Below, in pieces: positions 27,826 through 59,500 of a stretch of 64,000 nucleotides of DNA (position 1 is its first letter; each line of letters begins with the position of its first letter). Source of the stretch: Tridacna crocea. Lineage: Eukaryota > Mollusca > Bivalvia > Cardiida > Cardiidae. Under the pieces are notes generated by a model that did no database searches, was not told where the DNA came from, and saw nothing but the letters and a program-made list of their open reading frames with translations. Made by a program: the position numbers and the translations under genes. Location of the stretch: assembly GCA_943736015.1 (NCBI GenBank), contig OX031060.1, forward strand, positions 5,283,501 to 5,347,500, written 5' to 3'.

Positions 27826-28054
27826 TTAACTCATTACCAAACGACAATATTCTAGGCTTGTCCAAATCCAAAGCATTTGCAGACGACAAAATGAAAGTGA
27901 CTGAAAATTAAAAATTTGTTTTGTGAAGAGTAGAAAACATTGTGGGAAAAGGAGAAAATGCTTGTTACAAGCATTTTCTCCTTTTTCCACAATGTTTTCT
28001 TAAGGATTCTTTCTCAGGGTCGTCAAAAGGAGGGATTGAGTGGTAATGGGTTAA
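27826..28054 (+). mobile_element. TTAA-A MITE, full length, matched loop change
   Basis: Core GCTTGTTACAAGC: both arms differ from GCTGGTTACCAGC in a paired way. Right end GAGTGGTAATGGGTTAA. Confidence 0.85.
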
Positions 28055-28152
28055 AAGTTGTCTCTGCACCCTGTGTAGACCAAAATCAGAGTGCACAAAA
28101 CGTGCAGTCTGATTCTTTATCTTCACTTCTTGCTTTGCTTAGACGTTCTTAA
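28051..28152. mobile_element. Shortened TTAA-Q MITE
   Basis: Centre GAGTGCACAAAACGTGCAGTCT; TTAA on both sides, each shared with a neighbouring TTAA-A copy. Internal parts are deleted. Confidence 0.55.
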
Positions 28153-28382
28153 CCCTTTACCAAACAATCCCTGGCTTTTATGACCTTGTGATAGAAACCT
28201 TTTGAAAGCATTGTGAGAAAAGGAGAAAATGCTGGTAACCAGCATTTTGTGCTTTTCCCACAATTTTTTCTATCTTGCTGGAAACAAATATCAATTTTTG
28301 AGTACTGGTAACGTTTATTTTGTTGTCTGCAAATTCTTTCAATTTGGACCGGTCTAAAATTTTATCATTTGGTAAAGGGTTG
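28149..28382 (-). mobile_element. TTAA-A MITE
   Basis: TTAACCCTTTACC at left; right end GGTAAAGGGTTGA has lost the TTAA. Confidence 0.75.
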
Positions 28383-28554
28383 ACAGAAGTCAGTTTTAGA
28401 ATTGCAATCTTTTGGATTATCTTTCTTGACTAGAAATGTCTGATGGGTTTATTCCGCATCTCTCGAAGAAGAATTATTGACTTTCAGTTACTACAGGTTG
28501 TTCCAAAATTATGTTTACCGTATGAGTGCCTAACACAACTGCAGTAGCTATTGT

Positions 28555-28615
28555 GGTAGATGCAGATCAAGATTAGACTGCACAGAATGTGCAGTGTGGG
28601 ATGGGTTTGTATACA
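28555..28615. mobile_element. TTAA-Q core fragment
   Basis: TAGACTGCACAGAATGTGCAGTG with AGATCAAG to its left; ends are gone. Confidence 0.5.
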
Positions 28616-28674
28616 CCAACCAATTTCTCAAAAGCATTCTTTTTGTTATTCTGGAAAATATTCTAAATTTGAAA

Positions 28675-28903
28675 TTAACTCTTTACTGAACAACAAGTTT
28701 ATAGACTGGTCCAAATTGAAAGCATTTGCAGACCACAAAATATATGTGACTGAAAAATTGAAATGTGATTTGGGAAAGGTTGAAAACATTGTGGGAAAAG
28801 GAGAAAATGCTGGTTACCAGCATTTTCTCCTTTTCCTACAATGTTTTCAAAAGGCTTCTGCCTCAGGGTTGTCAAAAGTCGTCATTGTGTGGTAAAGGAT
28901 TAA
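28675..28903 (+). mobile_element. TTAA-A MITE, full length
   Basis: Core with CCTTTTCCTACAATG in the right arm; ends GTGTGGTAAAGGATTAA. Confidence 0.8.
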
Positions 28904-29030
28904 CACCACTTCTGATTGGCTAAATCATTTGGTTTAGCCAATCAGAAGTTTTGTTACTTTCAAGTATAGAAAATTGTTGAGAATGAAAATAAAAAGGTTC
29001 TCAAGAATGAAGAATGGTTGGTAAATGTAG
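28904..29030. mobile_element. Fragment of the TGTATTCACCAACC fold-back MITE
   Basis: Holds the central inverted repeat (CTTCTGATTGGCTAAA / TTTAGCCAATCAGAAG) and one outer arm ending GAATGGTTGGTAAATG. It follows directly on the TTAA end of the MITE 28675-28903. Confidence 0.65.
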
Positions 29031-29074
29031 CCCTAAATCTGTGATCTTGTCTATCTGTCTGTTATGCTTAGATT

Positions 29075-29302
29075 TTAACTCTTTACCACACAATCCCAAC
29101 TTTTAACGACCCTAAGAAAGAAAACTTTTGAAAACATTCTAGTAAAAGGAGAAAATGCTGGTAACCAGCATTTTCTCCTTTTCCCACAATGCTTTCTAAC
29201 ATTCCCAAATTAAATTTTGATTTTGATTCACATTTACTTTGTTGTCTGCTAATGTTCTCAGTTTGAACTAATCCAAAGTTTCATTGTTTGATAAAGAGTT
29301 AA
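29075..29302 (-). mobile_element. TTAA-A MITE, full length
   Basis: Core left arm ACATTCTAGTAAAAGG is changed and unpaired at several positions; GCTGGTAACCAGC kept. Confidence 0.8.
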
Positions 29303-29528
29303 ACAAAAGCCTTGAAATTGCATTAATTTCAGACTTATTTCTTAACTGAAAATATCCATGAGGTTATTTGGCACCCTTAGGGTAAAGCCGGAATTTAAGA
29401 TCAAAGATTGCAGACAGCTTGCCTTATAAGCAATGTGGTTTGTAATGGATTCATCAAAGATTAGACTTTTTACCAGATGACAAAGTTTAAGATTGGCTCA
29501 CATTAAGTTCATTTGCAAACAAATTTTA

Positions 29529-29744
29529 TTAACTCTATACCAGATGACAGAAATTAAGCCTGGTCAAAATTGAAGGCATATACTGCTATTATGATACATA
29601 CTAATTTTGCCTTTAAAAGGGTTTAAAATGCCATGGGCAAATCTGAAAATGCTGGTTGCTAGCAGTTTCTCCTTATCCCAGAATATTTTTAAAAATCCCT
29701 TTCTTTGGGTTGTCAAATCTTAGAAATGTTTGGTGAAAGGTTAA
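29529..29744 (+). mobile_element. TTAA-A MITE, decayed
   Basis: TTAACTCTATACCAGATGAC; core GCTGGTTGCTAGC; right end GGTGAAAGGTTAA. Confidence 0.6.
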
Positions 29745-29842
29745 AAAAGGATACATGATAGGAAAGGCAATTGAAAGTGTAAAAAACTTGTTCAAAAAGG
29801 AGAGAAATGTTGGTTCCCACTTATTTTTTCTCCATCAATGAT

Positions 29843-30060
29843 TTAACTCCAGCAAATAACAAAATTTTACACGTGTCCGAATTGGAGGATTTTGCAGATG
29901 ACAGATTGAATATTACTATATTGATACATGTAGTTTCTTTCTTGAAGGGAAAGAATACTGTGTGAAAAAAGAAGAAATTGTTGGTTAACAGCACTAGCTC
30001 TAGGTCCTTCCCTCAAAATGTTTTCGTTAGCCTTTCTCTATGTCCTAATCTTTCTTAGTT
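29843..30060 (+). mobile_element. TTAA-A MITE, very decayed
   Basis: ACTCCAGCAAATAACAAAAT, then GAATACTGTGTGAAAAAAG and TTGGTTAACAGC; no clear right end. Confidence 0.45.
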
Positions 30061-30095
30061 TTTCTGCCTGTTTTGAAACGGACGCCATCATTCAA

Positions 30096-30297
30096 CCTCT
30101 TACCTTTATAATCCCGACTTCTAAACGACCCTAAGAAAGAGGCTTTTTTGAAAACATTGTGGGAAAAGGAGAAAATGCTGGGAACCAGCATTTTCTCCTT
30201 TCCCCACAATACTTTCTACCCTTACCAAAATTGTTATTTTGCCTGCAAGTGCTTTCATTTTGGACTAGTCTAAAAAATTTTTGTTGGGTATAGAGCT
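30096..30297 (-). mobile_element. TTAA-A MITE, internal deletion
   Basis: Core GCTGGGAACCAGC with matching long arms; part of the right arm is missing. Confidence 0.65.
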
Positions 30298-30604
30298 AAG
30301 CCATCTTTAATTTCTTGGCTACAAGTGCTTTCCTTCATGTCTAAACTTTTTCCTCTGGTAAGGTGTGATTAACAGAAATTTTTTGGTTAGAACTATTAGT
30401 TTGGAGAGAAAAAAAGGGTATGTGACAGTTGCTTGAAATAAGCATTGTCTGTAATATGAATATTTTTTTTGGAATTCATGTGAAATGTTGAAGTTATGAA
30501 GTAATCGACAAGAGCAAACTCTTGTTTACAAAGTGCTGTGCTACAATCTCAACTGAAAGAGAAGTTATTATGGAACAACTTGTTAATTTAGGAATTGGTA
30601 ATTT

Positions 30605-30837
30605 AATAATCCCTTTACCCTACAATACCAAGTTATAACGACCCTGAAAAGAGCTGGCTTTTGAAAACATTGTGAGAAAAGAGAAAATGCTGGTAACCAG
30701 CATTTTCTCCATACCCCACAATGTTTTCTACCTTTTTACAAAAAGGAATAAGAATGATTTGATTAACATTTAATTTGTTGTCATGAAAAGCTTTGTAATT
30801 GGACTATTCTAAGATTTTGATTTGTGGTAAAGAGTTC
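30605..30837 (-). mobile_element. TTAA-A MITE
   Basis: CCCTTTACCCTACAATACC at left, core ATTGTGAGAAAAG...CTCCATACCCCACAATG, right GTGGTAAAGAGTTCA. Confidence 0.65.
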
Positions 30838-30965
30838 ACATGGGTATTGGCTAGGATGCAATAATGTTAGTCTCTGTATACAGTGTGCAACCTTTTCAAA
30901 AGCTTTCAACTAATTTTACTTTTTTTATGGTACATTACATTGCAGTAAATAGAATCCATTGTAAT

Positions 30966-31166
30966 CACCCTTTGCCAAACAAACTGGACCCTGAATGAAC
31001 CTGGAAAAATAAAATGCCTTATAAAAAGAGTATGGAAAAAAGGAGAGTATGCTGGAGACCAGGATTTTCTCCTTTTCCAGCAAAGTTTTTCTACCAGTTT
31101 AAAATCAAATTTCAAATATTTACTCTTAGTTATTTTGTTGTCTGCAAGGTGTATGGTAAAGGGTTC
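30966..31166 (-). mobile_element. TTAA-A MITE, decayed
   Basis: CACCCTTTGCCAAACAAACTG, core GCTGGAGACCAGG, right GGTAAAGGGTTCG; TTAA lost on both sides. Confidence 0.6.
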
Positions 31167-31191
31167 GAAACACTCACATATGATTTTGACA

Positions 31192-31398
31192 TTAACCCTT
31201 TACCAAACTACAAAATTTTAGACTGATCCAAATTGAAAGCACTTGCAGACGACAAAAGAAATGTGACTCAAAAATTGAACTTTCCAGCAGGGTAGAAAAC
31301 ATTGTTGGTTACCAGCATTTTCTCCTTTTCCCACAATGTTTTAAAAAGGGTTCTTTCTCAGGGTAGTTAAAAGTCAGGATTGTATGGTAAAGGGTTAA
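31192..31398 (+). mobile_element. TTAA-A MITE with half of the hairpin deleted
   Basis: Left core arm is cut short: ACATTGTTGGTTACCAGC, so the hairpin is lost although both TTAA ends are intact. Confidence 0.75.
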
Positions 31399-31544
31399 GA
31401 TATTAAGATTCAATGATAAGTCCTCTGAATCATAAATTGCCCAAAGGTTATGTTTATTAGGCTTGTCCTCAGCCAATCAACGTCTCCTCAAGATGTAGGA
31501 GGCGTGGCTTGACTGACGACATGCTAACTTAGAAAAAAAAAATG

Positions 31545-31723
31545 TGCTTGTTTTCATTGATCGCCACTCTTCCCCTTTCAGTCACATGTACTTACTTTGT
31601 TAATTATGTTTGAAAGTGACATGTAGGCCCATGGGGCCAGGTGTTTATATATATTTGTTATCAGTTTTTCTTTGTTAATTCATGCACATGTCACTGTAAT
31701 AAAATATTTACTTACTTACTTAC
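31545..31723 (+). mobile_element. Possible 3' end of another LINE with a TTAC-repeat tail
   Basis: The stretch ends GTAATAAAATATTTAC followed by a short TTAC repeat, the style of non-LTR elements with microsatellite tails. It holds a short self-complementary GGCCCATGGGGCC. No coding part is left. A weak call from 3' end style alone. Confidence 0.4.
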
Positions 31724-32676
31724 ATTGTACAACATAATATGTATATCTAAATATGTCATTTATTTAGCTTGCTTTGAACTTAATTGTTATGGCCATTGAG
31801 TGAGTTTGCTTATGAGATAAACTGTAATTTCTGCTCTTCTTTTTATTTTTTTCTTCTATAGAATCCTTATATTAAAAATATTATGGCCTGCAAAAATGTC
31901 TTTAGTCTTCAAGAACTGCAGAAATTATACAGAAGAATTTGTTGTTGGTTTATTAAATTGAAACAATGATTTTTATGCAATCACTCTTATAACCCCTTGA
32001 AAACCTCTTACAATTTTATTTGCCTTTGTGGCTTGTGTAGATCAAAGATCAGACTGCATCAATTGTGCAGTTTGATCAATGTTCTAAACTGTCCACTATA
32101 GTAAGACATTCTCAACTAAAGCCACCATGGAACTACATGTACTATCATTCAGGTGTTATTTCCTCAATGAAATATCCATGTGGTGTATTTAGGAAAGTTC
32201 TTGATCTGATTTTTTTAAATGATGCAAACCTTGTAGTGAATTGCACAACTTATTCAGTAACATTCAATTCACAGCCATATTCAGTTGTCTGACAAAACAT
32301 TTCAATGAAAAATGATAAAAATTCCAATTGGAATCACATTTACTGAATGTAAGTCCCCATGCATGCTGTTGTTTCTTGTCTAGTTTTAATTTTTTTTCAT
32401 TTGTTTGAAATACATTCTAACTATATCATTATTCATAGAATCAGGCAATTTACAATGGCCTGCAACCTGTGAAAAGGCTTATTTGGACATTTGCCTGGAC
32501 TCTGCAGGCTGATTCAAGATGACACTTTACGCAAATGTCTAAAAGCCCCTTTTCGCATGTTGAAGGCCATATACAATCCTTGACAGAATGCATCTCAAGG
32601 TCTTTTGTTGTTTAATTTTGACAGTGTTGTGTTGAGTGTTTTTTTTTCTCCTTCTTTTTTTTATTTTTTCCCTTTT
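31724..32676. other. No gene seen; unassigned repeat-like stretch
   Basis: 32450-32590 (GAAAAGGCTTATTTGGAC, GCCTGGACTCTGCAGGCTG) has the feel of a dispersed repeat but no partner in the window. The rest is AT-rich. Confidence 0.35.
32030..32085. mobile_element. TTAA-Q core fragment
   Basis: GATCAGACTGCATCAATTG and TGCAGTTTGATC; ends are gone. Confidence 0.5.
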
Positions 32677-33958
32677 TAGCTCTACCGGCTGAAAGCCAGC
32701 AGAGCTTATGTCATGGTGTGGTTTCCGTCGTCCGTCTGTCCGTCCGTCTGTCTGTCTGTCCGTCCGTCCGTCCGTCCGTTAGTCTTTTTCTTGTTTACGC
32801 GATAAAGTCTTCATTTTTGGTCAGATTTCCGTGAAACTTACACAGTTTGTTTATCTCATCAATAGCTTTAATCCTATTGATTTTGAAAAAAATCGGACAA
32901 ACAGTATGGGAAAAGTAGCCGTTTCATGTTCAAAATTTCCATTTGTTGCTTACGCGATAAAGTCTGTATTTTTGGTCAGATTTCCATGAAACTTGCAGAG
33001 TTTGTTTATCTCATCAATAGCTTCCACCCTATTGATTTTGAAAAAATTCCAACAAACAGTATGGGAAAAGTAGCCATTTCAAGTTGAAAACCTTCATTTC
33101 TTGTTTACGCGATAAAGTCTTCATTTTTGGTCAGATTTGAGTGAAACTTTCACAGTTTGTTTATCTCATCAATAGCTTTAACTCTATTGATTTTGAAAAA
33201 AGTCAGGCAAATAGTATGGGAAAAGTAGCCATTTCAAATTAAACAATTTCATTGCTTGTTTACATGATAAGGTATTTATTTTGTGATCAGATTTTTGTGA
33301 ATTCATCTCATCAATAGCTTTAACCCTATCGATTTTGAAAAAAGTCTGACAAACAGTATGGGAAAAGTAGCCATTTCAAGTTTGAAATTTCCTTTTCTTG
33401 TTTACGCAATAAAATCTGTATTTTTGGTCAGATTTCTGTGAAACTTGCAGAGTTTGTTTATCTTATCAATAGCTTCAACCCCATCAATTTTGAAAAAATT
33501 CCAATGAACAGTATGGGAAAAGTAGCCATTTCAAGTTGAAAACTTTCATTTCTTGTTTACCCGATAAAGTCTTCATTTTTGGTCAGATTTGAGTGAAACT
33601 TTCACAGTTTGTTTATCTCATCAATAGCTTTAACTCTATTGATTTTGAAAAAAGTCAGGCAAATAGTATGGGAAAAGTAGCCATTTCAAATTAAACAATT
33701 TCATTGCTTGTTTACATGATAAGGTATTTATTTTGTGATCAGATTTTTGTGAATTTTTCAGCTTGTCTATCCCATCAATAGCTTTTTAACCCTATTGATT
33801 TTGAAAAAATTCAATGAACAGTAATGCAAAAGTAGCCATTTTGAGTTGAAAATGTCAATTTTTTTGTCTTTTTGAATAATGAATTCCTAATGTATGCTTT
33901 ATTTAAAAGTCAAATCTCTGCCAGTAGAGCATATTCAGGCCCTTCAGGGCCTTCTAGT
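32677..33958 (+). mobile_element. Pearl/Helentron-like non-autonomous element with tandem repeats
   Basis: 5' end TTAGCTCTACCGGC forms a small hairpin with AGCCAGCAGAGC. A CCGT/CTGT microsatellite (about 32727-32782) follows, then seven units of about 155 bp, each opening with TTGTTTACGCGATAAAG or a variant. The 3' end has GCCAGTAGAGC (the inverse of the 5' GCTCTACCGGC) and then hairpin AGGCCCTTCAGGGCCT, TCTAGTT. Asymmetric subterminal inverted repeats plus a 3' hairpin are features of Helentron-derived elements such as oyster pearl. Units near 33098 and 33255 recur nearly unchanged at 33551 and 33706, a higher-order repeat of about 453 bp. Confidence 0.75.
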
Positions 33959-34527
33959 TTTCATGATTTTTTTATGTACACATCATTTTTTTAAAAATCC
34001 TTTACTATATTGTACCATTTGCCTCACTATATTGGACCATTTGTCTCAAGTAACAATAACAATTTAATAGCTATTGTTGATGCTACTTTTTCATTATGAT
34101 ATTTTCAAGGATAGCAGTACATTTGCTATATATTCTTAGATTTAGACACCATGGCTGGTCATCTAAAATTACAAATCGTCTTTCAGATGACTCTTTAAAC
34201 TGAGGTCCTGTGTAATTACTGATCTATACATCAAACATGTCAAAGGACCAGGTGTAAATGAGGATGGGTTTCATCCTGTATCTTGTACTATCCACAGTAA
34301 CAAAACTAGCAATCTTCAGGGGATGTGGCCCATATGGGCCAGAAGTGGTGACAATAGATAAATGCAAATTAAATCAGCCACATTCTATTCTAGAGTTAAT
34401 AATGTATATGTATATATCTAATTTGAAGACTGTTATGTCACATTTTGTCACAATATTATATGTTTTTAAGTTTTTAATTGAGTAAGAGAGAGAGAGAGAT
34501 AATGGTTATCAAATGGTCAAAGAAAAG
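33959..34527. other. No feature seen
   Basis: AT-rich; a GA microsatellite at 34486-34499. Confidence 0.4.
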
Positions 34528-34692
34528 CTGAACTCTATACTACACAAAATCAAGCTTCTAGATGATGGAAAGCAAGCATTTGAAAACATTGTGAGAAAAG
34601 GTAGAAAATGGTGGTAATCAGCATTTTCTTCTTTTCCTACAACATTTTATCTTTTTTCAAAAAAGCAAATTCAAGCATTGAAACACAATTTA
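34528..34692 (-). mobile_element. TTAA-A MITE, partial
   Basis: CTCTATACTACACAAAATC, core GGTGGTAATCAGC; runs into the next copy. Confidence 0.55.
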
Positions 34693-34918
34693 ACCCATTA
34701 CCACACAATCCCTACTTTTGACGCCCCTGAGAAAGAAGCCTTTTGAAAACACTATGGGAAAAGGAGAAAATGCTGGTAACCAGCATTTTCTCCTTTTCCC
34801 ATAGTGTTTTCTACCCTTCCCAGAACAAATTTCTATTTTTTAGTCACATTTATTTTGTCGTCTGCAATTGCTTTCAATTTGGACCAGTCTAAATATTTCT
34901 TGTGTGGTAATGGGTTAA
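34690..34918 (-). mobile_element. TTAA-A MITE, full length, perfect core with matched change
   Basis: Arms GAAAACACTATGGG and CCCATAGTGTTTTC: two differences from the common core, both mirrored. Both TTAA ends intact. A solo right end (34919-34983) follows and shares the TTAA region. Confidence 0.88.
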
Positions 34919-34983
34919 TATGTTGCCTGCTGATGCTTTCAATATGAACCAGTCTAAAATTTTGTCATCTGGTAAAGAGTTAA

Positions 34984-35411
34984 CTGATTTCATGTAGCTA
35001 TGTGAGATAACTTCTAAGTTTTGCAGCAAACTGCTTCTGAAAGTAATATGGCAGAATAAGGTATACTTTCTGTGTGCAAAATTGGCTTTTGCTACGATGT
35101 TTCACATGAAATATGACAAGTACGGGTAATATTTCATGTGAGTTTTCATCGTTTGATGAGGATATCTTGCTTGTAGATTGCTGTGAGGTTGTATTACTAA
35201 TAGGCTAATTTTCATCTTGTTTCTTTTTTCATACTTTGCCAATACAAAATGATCATTTTCATGTCTAGTATAGTTTTTTTTTTTTCTCTTTAACGACCGT
35301 CAATCAGTATCTACCCATACACATGCAACTGTACATACTTTGTAAACTGATTACATACATATACATGTATTTTAACAAAGTTAATTGAAGTAATCAATGA
35401 GTAGCAACCTC
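34984..35411. other. No feature seen
   Basis: Short inverted pair TTTCACATGAAATAT / ATATTTCATGTGA near 35100-35140; nothing else. Confidence 0.35.
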
Positions 35412-35640
35412 TTAACCCTTTACCAAACAATCCCTGGTTTTTACAACCTTAATATAGAAGCCTTTTGAAAACATTGTGGAAAAAGGAGAAAATGCTGGTA
35501 ACCAGCATTTTCTCCTTTTTCCAAAACGTTTTCTACCCTGCTGGAAACAAATTTCAGTTTTTGAGTTAACGTTTATGTTGTTGTCTGCAAGTGCTTTCAA
35601 TTTCGACGAGGCTATAATTTTGTGATAGGTAAAGAGTTAA
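35412..35640 (-). mobile_element. TTAA-A MITE, full length
   Basis: Core ATTGTGGAAAAAGG / CCTTTTTCCAAAACG; ends TTAACCCTTTACC and AGGTAAAGAGTTAA. Confidence 0.8.
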
Positions 35641-35825
35641 CAAAAAAGGGTATGATGAGGTTAAAATATGAGGTTAAAATGGATTTTGATTACTTACAAC
35701 ATGGGGTTTTGGTTGCTTGCATATAACTTGTATTCTACAGATAAATGCTAGATATTGTCCTTTTGAAGTTTGATATAATAGGTTATGAAAATAATGCACA
35801 GTTTTGAGATTTTATATTTTATGTT

Positions 35826-36130
35826 TGGCAATAAGGATAATGTGCTCTTTGACATGTGTGGTTATAAGGATAATGTGCGCTATATGTGTTGTGATGAGAA
35901 TTATGTACACTATGATATGTGTGGTTTATATGGATAAGGTGGACTACAGATTGTGTTGTGATAGACACATGCACTATCACTTGTGAAATGATAAGAATAA
36001 GATAAGAATGGTTTTTTGTTTGTTTGGTAATAAAGAAAAATGTGCACAATGATTTTTGTGGTAGTAAAAACAAGGTGTACAAGAAAAAAAATGTTCAGCA
36101 TAGTTTGTGTGAAATGAGAAGAATGTGCAC
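35826..36130 (+). repeat. Decayed tandem repeat, period near 30-35 bp
   Basis: Variants of GATAATGTGC followed by ATGTGTGGTTATA recur about ten times, decaying to the right. The reading frames across it are not conserved-looking. Confidence 0.55.
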
Positions 36131-36359
36131 TTTTGGTTTGTTTGTTGGTATGAAATATTTTGGGCTTTGATTCCATGTACTTTTAGTTTGGATCAATGAC
36201 CATTATTATTTTGAATTTAATTAAATATAATAATGTCCAAAGTATTTATTACTCAAGATGAAGGCTGAGTTTGTAAAAACATTCCGATAAATGGAGAAAC
36301 TGTGAAAATGAGCAATTTCCCATGTTTTCAAAAGCCTTTTTCCTCATGATTGTTAATCT

Positions 36360-36594
36360 TTCCAAAATGACAAATAAAAAATTCTTCCAATTCAAACAAT
36401 TGGAGATGGGAAATTCCAGAAATTGACACGAGGTAAAATTCTCTGATAGGATAGAAATTTTCTGTCAGGATAGAAAACGTTATGGTAAAAGGAGAAAATG
36501 CTGGTTACCAGCATTTTCTCCTTTTCCCATAATGTTTTCAAAAGCTTTTTCCCACATGGCTGTTAAAACCAAGGTTTGTTGGGGAAGGGGTTAA
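36360..36594 (+). mobile_element. TTAA-A MITE, left half decayed
   Basis: CCAAAATGACAAAT at left; core GAAAACGTTATGG / CCCATAATGTTTTC; right end GGGGAAGGGGTTAA. Confidence 0.65.
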
Positions 36595-37169: not shown

Positions 37170-37392
37170 TTAACGCCTTACCACACAATCCAGAGTTTTA
37201 AGGACCCTAAAGGAAAAGGCTCTTGGAAACATTGGGGGAAAAAGGGGGAAACGTTGAGAATCACTATTTTCTTGTTCCCCAATTCTACCCTTCCAAGAAA
37301 GAGAAACCAAATTTCTTAATTCTAATTCATACTTGTTTTGTCATCTGCAAATTTTTTCAACTTGAACAAGCATTTGCAGAGGACAATATAAC
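37170..37392 (-). mobile_element. TTAA-A MITE without a proper hairpin
   Basis: TTAACGCCTTACCACACAATC; core decayed to ATTGGGGGAAAAAGGGG; right end replaced by the AGAGCTC MITE at 37393. Confidence 0.6.
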
Positions 37393-37801: not shown

Positions 37802-38023
37802 ATAACCCTTTACCACGTGACAAGATTTTAAACCTGTACAAATTGAAAGCTGGTGACAGTTCCAATGTGGCTCATATAAAAAGATTATTCTTTGATAGGG
37901 TTGAAAACATTATGGGAAAAGGAGAAAATGTAGTAACCAGCATTTTCTCCTTTTCCCACAATGTTTTCAAAAGCCTTCTCTTTCAGGAGCGTTAAAAGTC
38001 AGGATTGAGTGGTAAAGGGTTAA
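37802..38023 (+). mobile_element. TTAA-A MITE
   Basis: Core lacks one base near the loop (AATGTAGTAACCAGC); right end GAGTGGTAAAGGGTTAA. Confidence 0.75.
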
Positions 38024-38329: not shown

Positions 38330-38558
38330 TTAACTCTTTACCACACCACAAAATTTTAGACTAGTTCAAATGGAAAACATTCGCAGACGACAAAATAAAG
38401 GTGACTGAAAAATTGAAATTTGTTCTGGGAAGGGTCGAAAACACTGTGGGAAAAGGAGAAAATGCTGGTTACCAGCATTTTCTCCTTTTCCCACAGTGTT
38501 TTCAAAAGTCTTATTTCTCCGGGGCGTCAAAAGTAGGGATTCTTTTGTAATGGGTTAA
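38330..38558 (+). mobile_element. TTAA-A MITE, full length, perfect ACTGTGGG core
   Basis: Arms AAACACTGTGGG / CCCACAGTGTTT fully paired. Right TTAA shared with TTAA-Q. Confidence 0.88.
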
Positions 38559-39890: not shown

Positions 39891-40110
39891 TTTACCAAAC
39901 AACAAAATTTTAGGATTGTCCTAAGAAAGCATTTGCAGGCGACAGAATAAAAGTTACTGAATATTTGAAAATTGTTTTGTTAAGGGTAGAAAACATGGTG
40001 GGAAAAGGAGAAAATGCTGGTTACCAGCATTTTCTCCTTTTCCCACCATGTTTTCTAAAGGCTTCTTTCTCGGGTTTGTCAAAAGTAGGGATTGTGTGGT
40101 AATGGGTTAA
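39888..40110 (+). mobile_element. TTAA-A MITE, perfect core with matched change
   Basis: Arms AAACATGGTGGG / CCCACCATGTTT; the T to G change is mirrored by A to C. Right end GTGTGGTAATGGGTTAA. Confidence 0.85.
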
Positions 40111-46356: not shown

Positions 46357-46585
46357 TTAACTCATTACCACACAATCCCTACTTTTGACGCCTCCGAGAA
46401 AGTAGTCTTTTGAAAACGCTGTGGGAAAAGGAGAAAATGCTGGTAACCAGCATTTTCTCCTTTTCCCACTGTGTTTTCTATCTTTCCTAGAACAAATTTC
46501 AATTTTTCAGTCACCTTTATTTTGTCGTCTGCAAATACTTTCGATTTGGACCAGTCTAAAATTTTCTCGTGTGGTAAAGACTTAA
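46357..46585 (-). mobile_element. TTAA-A MITE, full length
   Basis: TTAACTCATTACCACACAATC to GTGTGGTAAAGACTTAA; core ACGCTGTGGG / CCCACTGTG. Confidence 0.8.
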
Positions 46586-46975: not shown

Positions 46976-47208
46976 TTAACCCTTTACTCCATAGATACTC
47001 ATTTCTACGCATTGCTTGTAGGAGCCTTATAAAAACATTGCGGCAAAAGGTGAAATTGCTTGAGATGAGCAATTTCACCTTTTGTCACAATGTTTTCTAT
47101 GCCAGCAAAATGTGTCATATACATAATTATAAGAAACGGCTTCATCCTTGCTGTTATTTAGGGTCAATTTGAGATACCTTAGAAATGCCTTATTGGGTAA
47201 AGGGTTAA
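46976..47208 (+). mobile_element. TTAA-B MITE, full length
   Basis: Core GCTTGAGATGAGC has a changed loop; ends TTAACCCTTTACTCC and GGGTAAAGGGTTAA. Confidence 0.82.
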
Positions 47209-47267: not shown

Positions 47268-47476
47268 TTACTATTTACCAAATGACAAAATTTTATCCTG
47301 GTCGAAATTGAATGCATTTAGTGGACGACAACTTAAATATAACTATAATGATAGGATTTGTCTCTGAAAGGTGAGAAAGCAGTGTGAAAAATGGAAAAAA
47401 TGCTGGGTACCAGCATTTTCCACGATGTTTCATGTCTAGTTTCCAAGGGTTGTTAAATGTTGGGATTGTATGTTAA
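47268..47476 (+). mobile_element. TTAA-A MITE with shortened core
   Basis: ACTATTTACCAAATGAC; GCTGGGTACCAGCATTTTCC then CACGATG. Right TTAA shared with the TTAA-B copy that follows. Confidence 0.65.
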
Positions 47477-47718
47477 TCCTTTACCCCATAAGGCATTTCT
47501 ATGGTATTTCTAATTGACCCTTTATAACAGCAAGGATGAAGCCGTTTCTTATGTGTATATGACACCTTTTGATAGTGGAAAACAATGTTTTTTGTAGAAA
47601 ACATTGTGGCAAAAGGTGAAATTGCTCATCACAAGCAATTTCACCTTTTGCCACAATGTTTTCCAAAGGCTCCTACAAGCCATGCTTAGAAATGAGTATC
47701 TATGGAGTAAAGGGTTAA
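47473..47718 (-). mobile_element. TTAA-B MITE, full length
   Basis: Extra GAAAACAATGTTTTTTGTA before the core, a partial duplication of the core edge. Loop GCTCATCACAAGC. TTAA on both sides. Confidence 0.8.
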
Positions 47719-48064: not shown

Positions 48065-48275
48065 CTTAAAATTTTAGACTTTTCCAAATTGAAAGCATTG
48101 GCAGACGACAAAATAAAGGTGACTAAAAAATAGAAATTTGTTCTGGGAAGGATAGAAAACACTGTGGGAAAAGGAGAAAACGCTGGTTACCAGCATTTTC
48201 TCCTTTTCCCATAGTGTTTACAAAAGGCTTCTTTCTCAGGGGCGTCAAAAGTAGGGATTGTGTGGTAATGTGTTA
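48065..48275 (+). mobile_element. TTAA-A MITE, left end missing
   Basis: Begins at AAAATTTTAGACTTTTCC; core ACTGTGGG / CCCATAGTG; right end GGTAATGTGTTAA. Confidence 0.7.
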
Positions 48276-48493: not shown

Positions 48494-49050
48494 AATTATT
48501 AATTAACTATTGGATATATAGAAGTTATACATGGATACCGGTCCACGTGATACTAGTCACATTTCTGACTTCATATAGTATACAGGTCATGACCCCAGCT
48601 TAATACGACTTGACCTCTGATCAATACAGTTGACCTCATATCAATATTGATAACCCGCGACCAATACAGAAATCCTTGAACGTAATTGGTAAAAAGTTCA
48701 GTTGAGTGAGTGTCTGTGCTTACTTTTAGCCAATCACGTTCAAGGAGGCGGCAAAGTAAACGTAACCCAAAAATTGATATTGTTTCCTGCAGGGTAGAAA
48801 ACATTGTGGGAAATAGGAGAAAATGCTGGTTACCAGCATTTTCTCCTTTTCTCACAATGTTTTCAGAAGACCTCTTTTTCAGGGTCGTAAAAACCAGGGA
48901 TTGTTTGGTAAAGGGTTAATTAATAAAATTAATCAAGTAATTTCGTATTGGCCCAGTTACAGGTCCGAGGTCAGCCTTATTGGGGCCAATATGGCTGACC
49001 TCAGACCTGTAACTGGGCCAATACGAAATCACTTGATTAATAACATATTA
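48494..49050 (-). mobile_element. Chimeric fold-back element, copy 2
   Basis: Reverse orientation to 3966-4555. It shares the TTAATTAATAA end, the CCAATCACGTTCAAGGAGGC junction with the MITE half, the MITE hairpin (48800-48865) and the palindrome with TGGCCCAGTTACAGG arms (48950-49030), whose loop is shorter here. Confidence 0.75.
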
Positions 49051-49850: not shown

Positions 49851-49885
49851 CAAATAACATGAGCCATTTTCTGGCAAAAGTGGTC

Positions 49886-50525
49886 TTAACTCTTTACCAA
49901 ATGACAAAATTTTAGACTGGTCCAAATTGGTCATCTTTGCGAGCCAAGGTTACGATCACTACGTGGATCTTACCTTGGCTGATTGAGCCCAATTTTGAGA
50001 TTCCTGGGATGCGCCCTCTATTGGATGCTGGTTATTACCCCCCTTTACATCATATTTCTACGAGCCAATGAAATATCGTTTTACAAACCACTTACGAATA
50101 CACATGAAGCGATAAGCAGACATCCACATGGGTTTCCATGTTTACCTTCTTTTTGAAAGGTATTGACCTTATCCTATTCTTATCAAAGATGAAATGCTAA
50201 GAGCGATTTCATTCGGTGCAGTTAGAACTGGCTGCATCCAATGAAAAAGCTTTTCGGGGGAATGTAAAAATCAAGCTCGATCCACCAAGGGTAGAGTGGC
50301 GTAGTGAATCGTTGGCAGTGGCTTGCGAAGATGAAATTGGTAAGCATTTGCAGATGACAAAAGTAATGTGACTCAATGATTGAAATTTGTTTTGGGATGA
50401 GTAGAAAAACATAGTGGGAAAAGGAGAAAATGCTGGTAACCAGCATTTTCTCCTTTTCCCACAATATTTTCAAAGGGCTCCTTAGTCGGGGTCGTGAAAA
50501 GCAGGGATTGTTTGGGAAAGGCTTT
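49886..50525 (+). mobile_element. TTAA-A MITE split by the 404-bp TIR element
   Basis: TTAACTCTTTACCAAATGAC...CCAAATTGG, interruption 49931-50334, then TAAGCATTTGCAGATGAC and an intact core (50407-50475). Right end TTTGGGAAAGGCTTTG has lost TTAA. Confidence 0.82.
49931..50334. mobile_element. 404-bp TIR element nested in a MITE, 6-bp target duplication
   Basis: Ends TCATCTTTGCGAGCCA and TGGCTTGCGAAGATGA match at 14 of 16 positions. AATTGG lies directly on both sides (49925-49930 and 50335-50340), and removing the element restores the usual MITE reading. No coding capacity. Confidence 0.85.
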
Positions 50526-50660
50526 GATGCAACATTATCATGGATTCATAAATTCTATGGTAAAATGGTCCTTTGAATGCAGAAAATTTGCCCAAAGCAG
50601 TCCACAGGGTCGATACTCTTGGCAGATGTATAAATTTAGTCCCTTTTACACACAGCATGA

Positions 50661-50908
50661 GCCCGCCCGGGTGGCTCAGTGATGAGCGTGTTGGACTCAT
50701 GACCTGATGGTTGTAAGCTTGATACCAGGTTGAGGTGAACTTTCTTTCACCTCTCACCTCTGCTGAAGCATGTGATTAAAGTAGTCGGTGGCTTTGGAAA
50801 AAAAGTTTTGTAAGTACTGGTTTGAGAAATCAGGAAACACATGTGCGTCACTGACCGCCATGACATGACATTAGCTGTTAAAGTGGCGTTAAAACCCAAT
50901 ACAACTAA
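50661..50908 (+). mobile_element. tRNA-derived SINE, third type
   Basis: GCCCGCCCGGGTGGCTCAGTG carries the A box; ATGGTTGTAAGCTTGATACC is a decayed B box. The body has CACCTCTCACCTCTGCTGAAG, AGTAGTCGGTGGCTTTGG and CAGGAAACACATG, ending near GTGGCGTTAAAACCC. Confidence 0.7.
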
Positions 50909-51149
50909 CAAATCACACAGCATGACTCAATTTTCTTTTTTTTTCTGTATAACGCTCCATAAGGAAGCTATTTGTTGTTCTGATTTTTACAATATGAGGC
51001 GTACATGTAATATTCATCTGGTAAAGAGTAAATTCAAATAATATGCATGCACGAATTATATTTCTATTTTACACAAAAAAATAGCAGTCTCAACGGTATT
51101 GAATTTGATGTCTCTGCAATTTTACAAATCTTTTTTAACCTTTTGCCTA

Positions 51150-52320
51150 TCATCTTATAAAACGGATGAAGGATGACCGATGACGACGACAATACGGTTT
51201 TGAACCGGTCTGGTTTTTACCAAGCCTATCCAGTGCGCACTCAGTCTCGTTTCCGGTAAAATTTTACTCAGGACGAGGTTGAATTGTTGAGTTCGAGGTT
51301 TGTGACTCGTTTTGACCTCATACTAAAAACATCAACAGAATCTTGGTGGCCAAAATTGAATTTGAACCTCGATTTATATTGCTGAAATATTTTCTGCTTC
51401 GTTTTCATAGCTATGTTTTGTTTGAAGGGCCGGTTTTAATATGCCACAAACTTGGGCAAACCCGTATGGCGGATGCAAAATGAAGCTCGCAAATTATTTT
51501 TGGTCAACGACTCGGTCGTATTCTACTTTCGCTTTCAGTTTAAAATGCATATTTCAGTAATATTTCAAATTGCTATATTCAGTATCTTTTTCAAACGGGA
51601 GACGTATGATATGCATGCATCGATAATTTCGTTAGCGATCCGCTACTGCCTAATCGACTGTATTCCATTCTTTTATGGTAAATGATTTCTTCAATTTTTG
51701 ATGAAAACAATAGCCCTATGGCCTTTTCTCATTTCTCCGTTCTTTCTCGCTTCTCCGTTCATGTACTAAAGCAGAAGGAATAAGCGCTCGTGACGTTTTG
51801 TTCCACCCTGGTTCTATTCTACTCTGTCAGATATTATGAATAACAACCTATCCTACATCGATACTATTTTTCTATCGAATAAGACACAAAAATGCAACAA
51901 AAGAGAAAAATTTTCACAGCTTGGAAGAACAAATTTCATTAGATACAATAAAAAGCAAATTTTCAATGTTTTTCAACAATAAATACGCCTAAAAGGGTTG
52001 TGTTTACCCTTTACTATGAATAAGCTAGTCCCTCTGAACAAGAGTATAGAATATTTATCGGTCGTTTGTGACCAGCCTTGACTTTCAATCCAATGAATGG
52101 AAAAATGAGAAAGTGGCCATACTAACCACGTTGGCGAGGTAAGTTTGAAAAAATCCTCGGATAGAACCTTTTGATTCAAGTTGTAGTGACTTTTTTTAGT
52201 AACAAGTTTAATTTAGATTTTATATTTGATCACTACACGAAAATTGTGATTCCTTGACTGAAAATGTGAATTTTGTGAGCTTATTTAGGCTTAGGTGAAC
52301 GGAGAAAGGAGAACACAGTA
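51150..52320 (+). promoter_or_regulatory. Repeat-poor, CpG-containing stretch; possible CARF promoter and 5' exon
   Basis: Unlike its surroundings it has many CpGs (GATGACGACGACAATACGG, GAACCGGTCTGG, CCGTATGGCGGATG) and no MITE. It lies 1.0-2.2 kb before the first coding exon, whose own acceptor implies an upstream noncoding exon. A weak inverted pair (TTCTCCGTTCA at 51763 and TGAACGGAG at 52297) could instead mean an old TIR element. No start site can be fixed from sequence. Confidence 0.3.
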
Positions 52321-52355
52321 TATCCGCTAAGATTCTCAGTCCAGTCGCTACAAGT

Positions 52356-52580
52356 TTAACTCTTTACCAAATAACAAAATTTTAGACTAGTCCAGGTTGA
52401 CAGCATTTACAGGTGACAAAAGTGACTGAAAAATTGAAACTTATTTTGGGAAGGGAAGAAAACAATGTGGGAAAAGGATAAAATGCTGGTTACCAGCATT
52501 TTCATCTTTTCCCACAATGTTTTCCATAGGTATCTTTCCAAGGGTTGATAACAGTAGGAATTTTGTAGTAGAGGGTTTAA
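52356..52580 (+). mobile_element. TTAA-A MITE, full length
   Basis: Core right arm TTTCATCTTTTCC pairs with GGAAAAGGATAAAATG on the left, a partly matched change. Ends TTAACTCTTTACC and GAGGGTTTAA. Confidence 0.78.
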
Positions 52581-52779
52581 AGATCGTCTTTACAATTGTG
52601 TGACATAAAGTTTTGTCCTCATTTAAAACTGGAAACTACCACGGTGATTATACTTTGGAGGCCTCGGATCTTGAAAACGTTTTTTATCTATCATAATCTG
52701 TTCAACCTTGCAGCCATTAAATGCAACTTTTCCATAAAGATACAAGCATGAATATAGTTTCATAAAGTAAGGATGAAAT

Positions 52780-53122
52780 GAAAACTGCTAAAAAACCAAA
52801 CAACTACCTTCAGTCTGAAGGTCTGCTCTGATGCTGTTTTTGTTTCTGGTCTATGGAGATCAGAAACAAAAGTAGCATCAGAGCAGATCTTCAGACTGAA
52901 GGTACCAAACAACAGACTGTTCAAATTCAAACTGTTTGTAGATGACAAGAAGAGATGAGACTAAACAATTGAAATTAGTAGAAGAGTAGAAAACTGTGGG
53001 AAAAGGAGAAAATGCTGGTACAGCATTTTTTTTTTCTTTTCTTACAATGTTCTCAAAAGTCTCTCTCTCACTCTCTCTCTCTCTCTGTTATTGAAAGCCT
53101 GGATTTTGTGGCATATAGAGTT
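52780..53122 (+). mobile_element. TTAA-A MITE split by the 100-bp hairpin element
   Basis: CCAAACAAC, hairpin, CCAAACAACAGACTG, then core GCTGGTACAGC; right TTAA near 53119. A TC microsatellite (53057-53091) replaces part of the right arm. Confidence 0.65.
52805..52904. mobile_element. 100-bp hairpin element with 9-bp target duplication
   Basis: Arms of 44 bp (TACCTTCAGTCTGAAGG... and its inverse, with few mismatches) around a 12-base loop. CCAAACAAC flanks both sides (52796-52804 and 52905-52913). It is inserted in the left end of the TTAA-A copy 52780-53122. Confidence 0.8.
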
Positions 53123-53330
53123 AAGTTGAAGTTTTTTGATAAAATGTATGACAGTAGGTCAACTACAACTTTGCATAGTTGAAGAAATTTTGTTCTCAAA
53201 GTAATAAAAACAAATAACATGGGGTTTACAGAAGAACAAAATGATTTTAGAAATTAAGGAAGAATAGTTATTTATTATAAACCCATTGGTTTTGAAGTGG
53301 AATTCTATTCTTTTCTAAATTTAAAACAGA

Positions 53331-53505
53331 ATGGCAAGTGATGAGCAAAATGTATCTTCAACAACAGATCCAATCTCAGTGTTGACCATATCCCCACATT
53401 CAACAGTTGATTTAGGGGAGTTAAAAGGTGAAGAGAGTGAAGATGTGGAATCTATGGCAGTCGGATCTGGTGCACTGCTGTCAAATCAAAATTTTCTCAG
53501 TGTGG
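53331..53505 (+). CDS. CARF: CARF exon 1 (first coding exon), residues 1-58
   Basis: Starts at ATG just after an acceptor AG (53328-53329) preceded by a T-rich tract, so a noncoding 5' exon probably lies upstream. Encodes a Ser/Thr- and acid-rich stretch ([20 protein letters not shown]). The donor is GTAAG at 53506, leaving phase 1. The intron that follows holds two TTAA-A copies. Confidence 0.85.
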
Positions 53506-56500
53506 GTAAGGATGAAAATATTCTCTTTACTTTTATCAGTAGATTGAATGTTGTTACCATACAATGCCAATTTTTAGCGACGCTGTAAGAAAAGACTTTT
53601 GAAAACATTGTGGAAAAATGAGAAAATGCTGGTAACCAGAATTTTCTCCTTTTCTAATGATGTTTCCTTCTCTGTCAAGTCTGTTAAGGACAGAAATTGT
53701 CACTTGGCAACTTTTCATCTGTCATCTGCAGATGCTTGCAATTTAGTCTTATCCAAAATTTTAATGTTAGGTTACGATCTACATTGAGTTTGACATTATT
53801 TCAGTTCTATCACAGCAAAAGCTCACTTCTTCATGGATATGTTTTGCCATTTACCCCTTTACCAGACAATAAAATTTCATACTTGTCCCAAATTGAAATC
53901 ATTTGCAGATGACAATTTCAGTGTGGCTCATATAGTGTAATTTTTCTACAATAGTGGAGAAAACATTTTGAGAAAAGGAGAAAATGCTGCTTACCAGTAG
54001 TTTCTTCTTTTCCCACGTTTTCAAAAGGCTTATTTTCCAGGAGCGTCAAAAGTCTGCATTGTGTGGTAAAGGGTTTAAGACTATGGCTAGAAAGTGCAGA
54101 CTATCTGACACCAAATATCAGACTTCTCCAAATTGAAAGTTTAAATTTTTAAGTATGAGCCTGAATATCACACATTTTATCTGTCTATTTCAGTCTCGCC
54201 AACTATATCAAACCCCACCCTGCAGAGTTTACTGTCATCACCCACTGTGTTACAAGGAACCCAGCTTGGCCTTCCTCCAGGGGTGCAAATTGTGACTGTA
54301 TCTTCCCCATCAGATATTCTCCCCAATCAGTCTGTTGACATGGATGGGCGTGTGTGGCATGTGCTCAGTCCAGAACAAGCCATTATAGTCGGTGATGTGG
54401 ACTTGAAACCGACTACTCTGGTTGCTAATCCTGGTATGTTGCTCTCAAAGTCTTGATTTTTTTTTTCTTTTCTCAAGACTGCAACAATATAGATTCTGAG
54501 ATATTGAGGGTATTTTACAGACAACTAATCAGATGCATTTCAATTATAGAGGTTTTTTTTTTGAAAGGTAGAATACAATTTGACAAATATGCAGGTTACA
54601 AGCATTTTCTACAAATCCAACAATTGATGTTTTTCAAAGTCTTCATATTCACAGCATTGAAACAAAGGATTGTTAGGTAAGCAACTGGAAAAAAAAAACA
54701 AGCTATTGAGATGTTTCTTCATATGAAGTCTTTTGAAAGCAGTGTAGGAAAAGGAGAAATTACTTGAACAATTGGAAGAAGGGATCTCCAGTTTTCCCAT
54801 ATGATGTTCTACCCTATCAATTTTCATAGCATTTTAGGATCATTCTTTTAAGTTTTGAAATTGTAATCTGCAGAGGCTTTTGATTGCAAGTCTAAATTAT
54901 GTCACTTGAGAAATGTTCTTTCATACATCTAGAAACTAACTTAACCAAACAACAATATTTTAGGCTTGCAGACGACAAACTGAAAGTGACTGAAAATTTG
55001 AAATTGTTATATGGAGGGTAGAAAACATTGTGGGAAAAGGAGAAAATGCTGGTTACCAGCATTTTCTCCTTTTTCCACAATGTTTTCTAAAGGCTTCTTT
55101 CTCAGGGTCGTCAAAAGTAGGGATTGTGTGGTAATGGGTTATAGTTTACACATAAATGAGCCATGCTCTGTGAAAAGGGGCTTCAGTGCATTGACAGAAA
55201 GTTCCAACATAAGTCAGCACATACTGTCTGGGCCGACTGACCTGTGCTGAAACTTTTTGCTGTTGGTCAATTTTATGTATGCCAAATGACCAGGCTACCT
55301 AATGATTCTGTTTGTGATTAGAAATAGAAATACAGGATTGTTGAGTGAAGAGGTTGGGTTAATCCATATTTTAACCTCCTTAACCCTTTACTACACAATG
55401 ACGACTTTTAATACCCCTGAAAGAGAAGGCTTTTGGAAACATTGTGGGAAAAGGAGAAAATGCTGGCTACCAGCATTTTCACCCTTTCCCACAAAGTTTT
55501 CTTCCCTTTCAAAGAAAAGTAATTTCATATGAGCCATGTTGAAACTGTTATCAGCAAATGCGTTCAATTTTGACAGGTCCAAAATCTTGTCATGTGGTAA
55601 AGGGTTAAACAATCTTGCAGTAGACAACTTGAGGAAAAATATTGCCATCTGCAAAATTAATGCTTTCAGTTCAGTGCAATGTAGAATTGTGTTTTGTGAT
55701 AGAGACAAGTTTTGATAATTTATGCAAATTCAGTATCCTTAGACTAACCAACTGTTCATGTTTTCCAGTGGAAACCATGGATGAATCTGAACATGTTGGA
55801 TCCTCGGATCTGGTGGCATCAGCACAGGACCTTGCCATATGGATGCCGTCCCCAGCAACCCCTCTGCCCCCAGGGTGTCCGGCATGGGCGGCAAGACTTA
55901 AAAATTGTGAAGTTGGTATAGATTTAATGCGTTTGTTGATATACAGGTTGACAAAAGCTGTAGAAAGGTTGAACATAAAAGAGAGACAATAATTGTTATT
56001 ATCACAAGATCCCTAGTTTTTATGAATCCTAGGGAAGAAGGCTTAGGAAAACATCATCAAAAAAAAAAAGAGGAAAAAGTAAAAAACCTAAACATTGCAT
56101 TATTGCAACTTCAACTTTTGTTTCATTGGAAAACTCATCATATCAGACTGCATTAGTACAGATTACTCCCCAAATACCATTTTAGTTTTTGACTTGTTGC
56201 ATCCAGGTACAGATATGATTGCCAAAAAATGAGAGAAATTTGTACATAGAGTGTGTGTGCGTGTTTAACTCTTTACCAAACAACAAAATTAAAGATTGGT
56301 TTAAATTGAAAGCACTTGCAGATGACAAAATAAATGTGAATCAAAAATTGAATTTCAAATTTGAAAAGGTAGAAAACATTGTGGGAAAAGGAAAAAATGC
56401 TGGTAACCAGCATTTTCCCCTTTTCCCGCAAAGTTTTCAAAGGGTTTTTCCTTCATTTATTTTTTAATTTGGGATTGTGTGGCAAAGACTTAAATCGGTG

Positions 56501-59500
56501 AAACAGAAAGTCATTACTTTTAGTATAGTACAGTGCACAATATACATCCAAGTGTAAAGAGGAAGAATCACAGAATTTCCTTATTAAGACCATAGACTGC
56601 ATGTTCTATTGATCTACGCAGTCTTGAAAAGCAGACCGAGTTGTGTTGAGCAGTCTCAGGGTTAAAATGAATATTATACGCATATGTGTTTGTCAAATTT
56701 TTTTCAGAAAATTGGGAACTATTTCCGAGGTTATGTTGACACAGAGGCGGAGCTGGACATTTTATTGACCTATCACAAGCAAGCAACACAGAGTTTTTGG
56801 GGAACAAGACAATCCCCTAGTCCAGCGAAAATGTCAACCAGATTTATGTGGAAATCTCAATATGTTCCTTATGATGGTATTCCATTTGTAAATACAGGTG
56901 AGTCTGCAGCTCTAACACTAATGACAACTATTATTTAACTCTTTACCACACAGTCCCGACTTTTAATGACCCTGAAAAAGAAGCTTTTTAAAACATTGTG
57001 GGATAAGGAGAAAATGCTGGTAACCAGCATTTTCTCCTTTTCCAACAATGTTTTCTACCCTTCCCAAAACTAATTTCAGTTTTTTAGCCATGTTAATTTT
57101 GTCTTCTGCAAATACTTTTCATTTGCAAATGTTTACAATTTTGTTGTTTGGTAAAGAGTTAAGTTAAATCACAGGATCCAGAGTTTTTAAGGTCTGTAAA
57201 GCCCCTCCATGTAGCTGAATGGTTTGTGAATCTGACTCATAACCTGGTGGTTTTGCCTTTGCCGCAGTCTTTCTTTCTGCTGGTGATTTTTCACCTCTCA
57301 CCTCTGATTTATGTGAGAAAGTAGTCAGTGCCTTGGAAGGACAGTTGTGTCAGTAATGGTATGACAAAGCCAGGAAACACTTGGTGGGTGCACTGATCCC
57401 CCCTGATATGACCTAAGCTGTTAAACTCCGATACACACCCAGATTTATTGAAGCCAAGGAAAAAGAGCGTTTGAAAATATCATGGAAAAAGGAGCCCAAA
57501 CAACAAATTTTATACTCATCCACATTGAAAATGTTTGCAGACGGCAAATCAAATGTGACACAAATGATGAGATTTTTTGCGTTTTTGCGTGTTCAAGCCA
57601 AATGTAATTTCCCCAGCAATTGAAGAGAACCTGGAAGTTCTATATTTGTTTGTAGGTAGTAGGGCAATTGTACAGGAATGTCAGTTTGGTCCAAGACGAA
57701 AGGGTAGCTTAGCAAAGAAACAGGGAGAGAGTAATTCTTCTGGTGATTATAAACAGACTTGTCCTGCAAGGTGGGTGTCTTAGCCTCAATACCTGTAGTT
57801 CAAAGATTTATTTCATCCTGCCTAGCTTGTTAGCTGAGTTGGTTATAGAAGGTCCATATAACATGTCACAAGCTGCAGTTATGAGGTTCTTGATCTTAAC
57901 TTACAAAATATCATTTCTCCCATGTTTTTGTGTGGAACCAGTCCTAAGCTTGTAAAGAATGTTTTGCTAAATAGTAGTTACATGTTTACCACACAATTTT
58001 CTATTCTATTTTCAAAAGCTGTCCTTGTTTTCAAAAGGTGTCTATTCCAGTAGTTTTTTTTTTTTTTTTTTTTTAAACTCTCTTTTTCCGGTTAATCAAA
58101 ACTCTTGTATGATCTGTTGAAAAGTCTCTTTCTTAGGTTCGTAAAAACTTAGGTTTTATGGTTAATAGTTCATTAAAACATCCACTTGACCTAAAAAGTT
58201 AACTGAATGTTTTAGCACTCTAAAGGCAGCCGTTTAATCTTAACCCATTACCACACAATCCCTACTTTTGATGACCCTGAGAAGGAAGCCTGTAGAAAAC
58301 ATTGTGGGAAAAGGAGAAAATGCTGGTAACCAGCATTTTCCCCTTTTCCCACAATGTTTTCTACCATTCATAAAACAAGTTTCGAATTTTCAGTCTCTTT
58401 TATTTTGTTGTCTGTAAATGCTTTTGATTTGGACAAATCTAAAATTTTGTCGTTTAGTTATGTTTAAATTCAATAACTAGGTACTTTGGATACTTCAATA
58501 ACAGGATGGGAGTTTTTCAATTTTTTTCAATTCTGTCTATCTTTATTACATCAGATACGACATGATCATAACTGATTTGAATATAAATCCTTTTAATTGG
58601 TGTGTTTTATGCATGATTTGGCAATCCTTCTTTTGCAAATCTCTAGCATTAAATTGAAAAATAAATACCAAAAACACATACTTCTGTAAGGAAAAAATGT
58701 TTTTCTCTTTTCTTTCCTTTATCTTCTAAACTAATAATTTGTCAGCTATTAATTCAGAGAAAACTCATTTTTTAAGTTTGAAGGGAAAATAAAAATCGGA
58801 ACATCTCCCTTTTGACTCTTTACTAAATGACAAAGGTTGAGACCAGTCTAAATTGAAAGCATTTGCAGACAGCATAGAAAATTTATCAGAAACAATGGTG
58901 TTTGTCTGTGAAAGTCTAGACAACCTTGTGGGAAAAGGAGAAAATGCTTATTACCAGCATTTTCTCCTTTTCTCACAAGGTTTTCAAAAGGCTATATTGT
59001 CAGGGTCATTTAAACTTGGGTTTGCGTGGTTAAGAGTTTTTGAAGCAAAATTGTACATCTTTCAATTACATTTTAACAATGACTTTGATGATGTTGGTGA
59101 TGATGATGATGATGATGATTATCATAGTAGTAGTTGCGGTATATAACTTAGGTTAGAAAGTGTTGAAAAAAGGAAATCTTTGAAGTCACCTTTTAAAAAT
59201 TTTTTATGTCATTGAAACATACATATCAACTCTGTTGAATTTGGTTGCAAATTTTATGTTTTAGAATATACATTAAAAAAGTAAGGAAATTTCCCGAGTT
59301 CAAAATTGACCCAAGTTTGGACAAGAAAGGTACAAAGCAAGCAATGGATCAGGCATTCCACACTTTGAAGAGGACAAACATTGAGAAAGTTGGACAAGAT
59401 AGGTTAGTATTACATACTTCGCCTAGTGCATGTAATAAATCACTTTAGTTCTTCTGGCTGAAAGCCAGCAGAGCTTATGTCATGGCGTGGTTGCCGCTGT

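Follow-up and report, generated by a model that had tools for sequence, protein, structure and literature searches.

Matched arm changes and loop inversions suggest template switching within an abundant hairpin MITE of Tridacna crocea

Several copies of a hairpin-bearing MITE in the stretch of Tridacna crocea DNA analysed here (64,000 nucleotides of contig OX031060.1, hereafter the window) carry the same base change in both arms of the hairpin, which raises the question of how two arms come to change alike. The preliminary description reported such changes at 27.96, 34.75, 40.0 and 58.9 kb and proposed arm-to-arm correction or selection for pairing as their source. All four are present in the sequence, and the window has more matched pairs than these (Table 1; hairpin pairs are numbered outward from the loop). 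We favour, with a probability of roughly two in three, template switching between the arms of an abundant MITE core that is a near-perfect palindrome, a process that would yield both the matched doubles and the flips of the loop base described below.

The repeat unit is a TTAA-flanked MITE of about 227 bp, laid out as TTAA, CYCWTTACC..., a left outer arm of about 100 bp, a hairpin core with 33-bp arms and a 1-nt loop, a right outer arm of about 50 bp, and ...GGTAAWGRGTTAA. Among full-length copies, 54 of 62 have TTAA at both ends. The commonest starts (CTCTTTACCA, CTCATTACCA and CCCTTTCCCA) and ends (GGTAATGGGTTA and GGTAAAGGGTTA) form terminal inverted repeats, and all six of the commonest starts read 5'-CY; the start motif of piggyBac is 5'-CC/CT. 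From its TTAA ends, terminal inverted repeats and 5'-CC/CT start, the MITE would be classed as piggyBac-like. Like other non-autonomous elements of this TTAA-inserting group, it is short, with TTAA at both ends, 5'-CY ends and a consensus without visible coding sequence, but it differs from them in its long internal near-perfect hairpin. Kolobok elements share the TTAA target site; membership in that group was rejected, as their termini are 5'-RR...YY-3' (PMC9587614), whereas the MITE ends in 5'-CY. Scans of the window against Rfam (gathering threshold) and for tRNAs gave no match, nor did a 28-base piece of the arm against viral_contigs.

The window also contains other long near-perfect palindromes of different sequence (arms of 36-94 nt, 1-4 nt apart) at 2086-2275, 5584-5756, 3972-4116, 48928-49041, 52805-52904, 2578-2670 and 5129-5201, which are probably other hairpin elements. 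Two satellite-like tandem arrays lie at 32787-33857 and 24908-25694 (periods of 155 and 156 bp), and an open reading frame with a reverse transcriptase domain (PF00078), a LINE-like remnant, at 11349-12545.

The genome searched comprises 1,048,827,098 bases in 31 contigs (C1-C18 of 40-77 Mb, C19 and C20 below 60 kb). Exact matches to a 31-mer of one arm number 109,441 and 108,409 on its two strands, and the perfect 61-bp core with T in the loop occurs in 31,466 exact copies, decayed copies being more numerous. Outside the window, 23 ten-kb stretches (230 kb) at fixed places in the genome were sampled; stretches L001-L008, which came from a search for the perfect arm, were left out of every test. 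Core calling started from 331 matches, of which 110 had no core with six gaps or fewer and were dropped, leaving 221 cores, 75 in the window and 146 in the sampled stretches. Scaled up from this small and uneven sample, the total would be roughly 0.67 million cores genome-wide. Core density is very uneven along the genome, with no cores in stretches L020 and L026 and 16 in L021.

Table 1. MITE copies in the window with matched arm changes, subfamily states or flipped loop bases
Feature	Position	Strand	Loop base or basis
MITE copy, matched pair-3 G>T (GCTTGT/ACAAGC; 27963/27969)	27827..28053	+	loop base 27966
MITE copy, CACTG state (pair 26 T>C, 34752/34804) and matched pair-24 G>A (34754/34802)	34691..34917	-	loop base 34778
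CACTG-subfamily copy, pair-24 change in right arm only	48068..48275	+	outer-arm identity 0.934 to 34691-34917
MITE copy, matched pair-25 T>G (CATGGTGGG/CCCACCATG; 39997/40047)	39891..40109	+	loop base 40022
MITE copy, matched pair-27 A>C (ACCTTG/CAAGGT; 58925/58979) and 4 one-arm changes	58815..59038	+	loop base 58952
Further matched double, pair 20 G>A, outside the earlier list	35413..35639	-	
CACTG/CAGTG copy (pair 26 T>C), otherwise no one-arm core change	38331..38557	+	state follows outer arms
Other CACTG/CAGTG copies	15385-15611, 46358-46584, 62301-62527		
GCTCGT copy, matched differences at pairs 3, 8, 13 and 20	22185..22411	-	state follows outer arms
GCTCGT kin	893-1116, 5212-5438, 7401-7628, 46977-47207, 47474-47717		
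Flipped loop base (A for T)	56266..56491	+	
Other main-family copies with flipped loop	666-839, 37803-38022, 50336-50524, 52903-53114, 55381-55607, 62779-62985		

Matched differences could simply have been inherited, if each variant were a subfamily, older or younger, in which both arms had changed before it amplified. Some of them do have this origin. On an outer-arm tree built from 180 of the 221 cores, the CACTG/CAGTG state at pair 26 requires 8 changes for 21 copies (20.2 when shuffled), GCTCGT cores 4 changes for 22 copies (shuffled 21.1), and the T:A state at pair 13 alone 2 changes for 16 copies (shuffled 15.6). Judged by their outer arms, CACTG/CAGTG and GCTCGT are inherited subfamilies, and their matched states spread with them. 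Part of the 34.75-kb case is therefore a subfamily state, since the pair-26 change follows the outer arms. The added pair-24 change in that copy is not shared by its relatives in both-arm form. Of its three closest relatives in the sample, two carry this change in the right arm alone and look like intermediates, though at other loci; the copy at 48068-48275, a CACTG copy changed at pair 24 in the right arm alone, is a possible intermediate of this kind. The pair-3 double at 27.96 kb is absent from all 6 of that copy's nearest sample relatives by outer arm. The hairpin at 58.9 kb is not a perfect palindrome, because it also holds one-arm changes.

If each arm decayed independently, matched doubles should appear only at the rate of chance coincidence. 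From the 221 cores we set aside 29 GCTCGT kin, leaving 192 of the main family, masked the CACTG state at pair 26, and re-paired (shuffled) arms among copies of like decay as the null. In the 84 copies with 0-3 deviations from the core, 6 matched doubles were found where 1.3 were expected (p = 0.001); this near-intact stratum holds three of the four sites, the 58.9-kb copy falling outside it with 6 deviations. In the second decay stratum the count was 7 against 5.0 (53 copies, p = 0.24), and in the two most decayed strata 6 against 7.1 (26 copies) and 27 against 25.1 (29 copies). Unmatched doubles, from young to old, numbered 0 against 1.4, 2 against 5.6, 9 against 8.3 and 35 against 32.8. Looser tests that still held GCTCGT relatives gave a larger excess in the two youngest strata (6 against 0.74 and 10 against 3.5) and were set aside. 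Across all 192 main-family cores taken together the excess is not clear, with 46 matched doubles where 38.6 were expected (p = 0.10). The argument that independent decay cannot account for the matched changes thus stands for near-intact copies, to which the excess is confined, but not for decayed ones, in which doubles are as frequent as independent mutation would make them; among old copies most doubles are due to chance.

Genome-wide, matched doubles exceed the product of single-change rates at the three paired positions where doubles and left-only copies were both counted. Counts were of exact 61-mers with a T loop and the remainder of the 61-mer perfect, and in the expectation right-only changes were taken as equal to the counted left-only changes; in the sample, left and right singles number 15 and 15 at pair 25, 20 and 19 at pair 28, and 17 and 15 at pair 3. 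On this assumption the 40.0-kb variant, pair 25 T>G (CATGGTGGG/CCCACCATG), with 137 doubles and 485 left-only copies, exceeds its expectation of 7.5 by a factor of 18. Under the same equality, pair 28 C>T has 166 doubles and 1,438 left-only copies (65.7 expected, 2.5-fold), and pair 3 G>T, the variant at 27.96 kb, has 11 doubles and 174 left-only copies (0.96 expected, 11-fold). Pairs 25 and 3 were picked because a double had been seen there, and pair 28 was not chosen blind either, two doubles there being known from the sample. At pair 6 G>T only 3 doubles occur genome-wide, which may count against a general excess. A control double at unpaired positions (pair 25 in the left arm, pair 28 in the right) shows no excess, with 18 copies against 22.2 expected; copy age therefore does not inflate doubles there, and on this one combination we rejected age differences among copies as the source of the excess.

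Expressed as a share of single-arm changes, the excess is 13% at pair 25, 3.5% at pair 28 and 2.9% at pair 3. Pair 25 thus exceeds the other two positions about fourfold in matched fraction, and its high value may come from the picking of a variant already seen, or from the type of mismatch. The process is thus weak and slows the decay of the hairpins only slightly, since it makes matched doubles of about 3% of one-arm changes (13% in the 40.0-kb variant).

Selection for a symmetric core, whether for folding or for binding of a dimeric transposase, would favour doubles over singles. Of 143 copies, 142 have a core nearer to the consensus than their outer arms are, a figure inflated by subfamily differences in the outer arms, and subfamily cores differ by matched changes, in line with such selection. 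In addition, palindromes in the ends of piggyBac serve as binding sites for paired cysteine-rich domains (PMC11707139), and selection may act on the core, perhaps through piggyBac transposase binding of palindromes, which we regard as a lead only. However, selection does not make the second hit, and at pair 25 doubles amount to 28% of left-only copies against a one-arm change frequency of 1.5%. Mismatches of the G.T type total 240 and those of the A.C type 214, and by stratum the singles are 39:34, 74:49, 46:56 and 81:75. With no consistent wobble asymmetry, these counts give no clear sign of selection for RNA pairing. Selection for symmetry also predicts no loop flips. Had selection for pairing acted at amplification, doubles should group in clades, and those of the 40.0-kb variant do not. 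The suggestion of selection for pairing thus found no clear support and is not needed; we consider selection for a symmetric core very unlikely as the explanation of the doubles.

The 40.0-kb variant sits on many backgrounds. In 20 pair-25 doubles fetched from twelve contigs, mean outer-arm identity is 0.756; the 45 near-intact controls give 0.746 among themselves, and doubles compared with controls give 0.751. A tree was built from 19 pair-25 doubles, 19 pair-28 doubles and 16 pair-25 singles (20 fetched per group) with 96 controls. On outer-arm trees the 19 pair-25 doubles require 15 or 16 changes (18.1 when shuffled), the pair-28 doubles 14 for 19 (shuffled 18.1, the lowest of 300 shuffles being 15), and the pair-25 singles 16 for 16 (shuffled 15.4). 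By these counts, doubles are therefore nearly as dispersed as singles, slight clustering aside (nearest-neighbour p = 0.013 for pair-25 doubles, with L042, L044 and L046 mutual neighbours). Inheritance, which accounts for CACTG, GCTCGT and pair 13 and is favoured by the slight clustering at pairs 25 and 28, is contradicted at pair 25, where the outer arms of doubles are as unlike as those of controls. It also leaves the origin of the matched differences between subfamilies unaccounted for and, on its own, does not explain the loop flips. As the sole explanation we regard it as quite unlikely. The possibility that the variants are amplified subfamilies holds for CACTG and fails for the 40.0-kb variant.

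The loop base offers a second view of the process, since it has been flipped far too often for point mutation. With the loop oriented by the outer arms, which could be used for this in 189 of the 199 main copies, it is T in 159 copies, A in 19, C in 6 and G in 5. In near-intact copies the loop is A in 14 of 133, compared with T>A changes at 24 of 2,652 other core T sites (p = 4e-10), or about ten times the frequency elsewhere in near-intact cores. Genome-wide, with orientation fixed by GGGTAG and A and T counted, 3,517 loops are A and 38,301 are T (A:T = 9.2%). The flips are dispersed, 17 A-loop copies requiring 14 changes on the outer-arm tree (16.5 when shuffled, with a lowest value of 14), although an A loop is somewhat commoner among their neighbours than chance would give (0.18 against 0.09, p = 0.05). 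Mispairs are not fewer in flipped-loop copies (p = 0.98). In the GCTCGT copies at 5212-5438, 22185-22411, 46977-47207 and 47474-47717 the loop is C in three and G in one, again a complementary flip. When template switching inverts the spacer, as described in yeast (PMC8604942), the outcome is a flipped loop with both arms intact, whereas mismatch repair within the folded strand would be expected to leave the loop as it was.

Dispersal and loop flips would also result from ectopic exchange, in which gene conversion swaps whole cores between copies and pasting in reverse flips the loop; the 8 changes of CACTG itself, more than one, fit this as well. Yet exchange without bias would carry one-arm variants to new copies just as readily as doubles, and the mean number of doubles should therefore not rise, whereas doubles are raised at pairs 25, 3 and 28 while the unpaired double is not. 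Moreover, GCTCGT and pair-13 cores remain with their own outer arms. We therefore think exchange unlikely as the source of the doubles.

Taken together, matched arms, flipped loops and many backgrounds fit template switching between the arms. During DNA synthesis across the core, the growing strand would fold back or jump to the sister strand and then copy the opposite arm. A change in one arm would thereby either be lost or be written into the other arm as well, which gives a matched double, and the switch could also invert the 1-nt loop. The arm-to-arm correction proposed earlier is thus supported by the doubles at pairs 25, 28 and 3, by the dispersal of the 40.0-kb variant and by the loop flips, but it is not needed for every matched variant, CACTG being inherited. 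Our inference is that the arms are copied by template switching during replication, not by some other process acting between them, and that most of this happened once elements had inserted or in lineages that did not last long.

Replicative template switching between hairpin arms is known in bacteria. In S. cerevisiae inverted repeats, it homogenises the arms and inverts the spacer, and shorter spacers favour it (PMC8604942); the 1-nt spacer of the MITE fits this preference. Yeast quasipalindrome mutation resembles the pattern seen here in that short inverted repeats have their arms made alike and their spacers inverted. In contrast to the yeast cases, which are single loci on a strain tree, the MITE is present in very many copies and events are deduced from counts. 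Template switching also maintains the hairpins of RNA genes, where matched stem changes are likewise explained by a mutational process and not by two hits and selection (PMC8794818). Those genes are under structural selection, whereas the MITE is non-coding and no RNA signal was found in the scans of the window.

Studies of template switching at imperfect palindromes have usually relied on reporter genes or single loci. The process itself is already known; what is new is a MITE family in which switching can be counted. We found no report of arm-to-arm template switching in a MITE family in a literature search that covered few subscription papers. As the same 61-bp core occurs tens of thousands of times in one genome, the germ-line rate and rules of switching could become readable from sequence alone. 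The family also carries a warning: changes matched between arms are usually read as proving that pairing is selected, yet they can arise as a by-product of mutation.

More tentatively, and in our view doubtful though worth considering, template switching could be a standing force: of the hairpins, which number in the hundreds of thousands, several per cent would be re-copied arm from arm as germ-line DNA replicates. Such re-copying would keep source elements palindromic, and new subfamilies, such as CACTG and GCTCGT, would therefore start with matched differences in both arms. If this were true, the family would act as a natural gauge across the genome, from which template switching could be read for each pair position, mismatch type and direction of replication.
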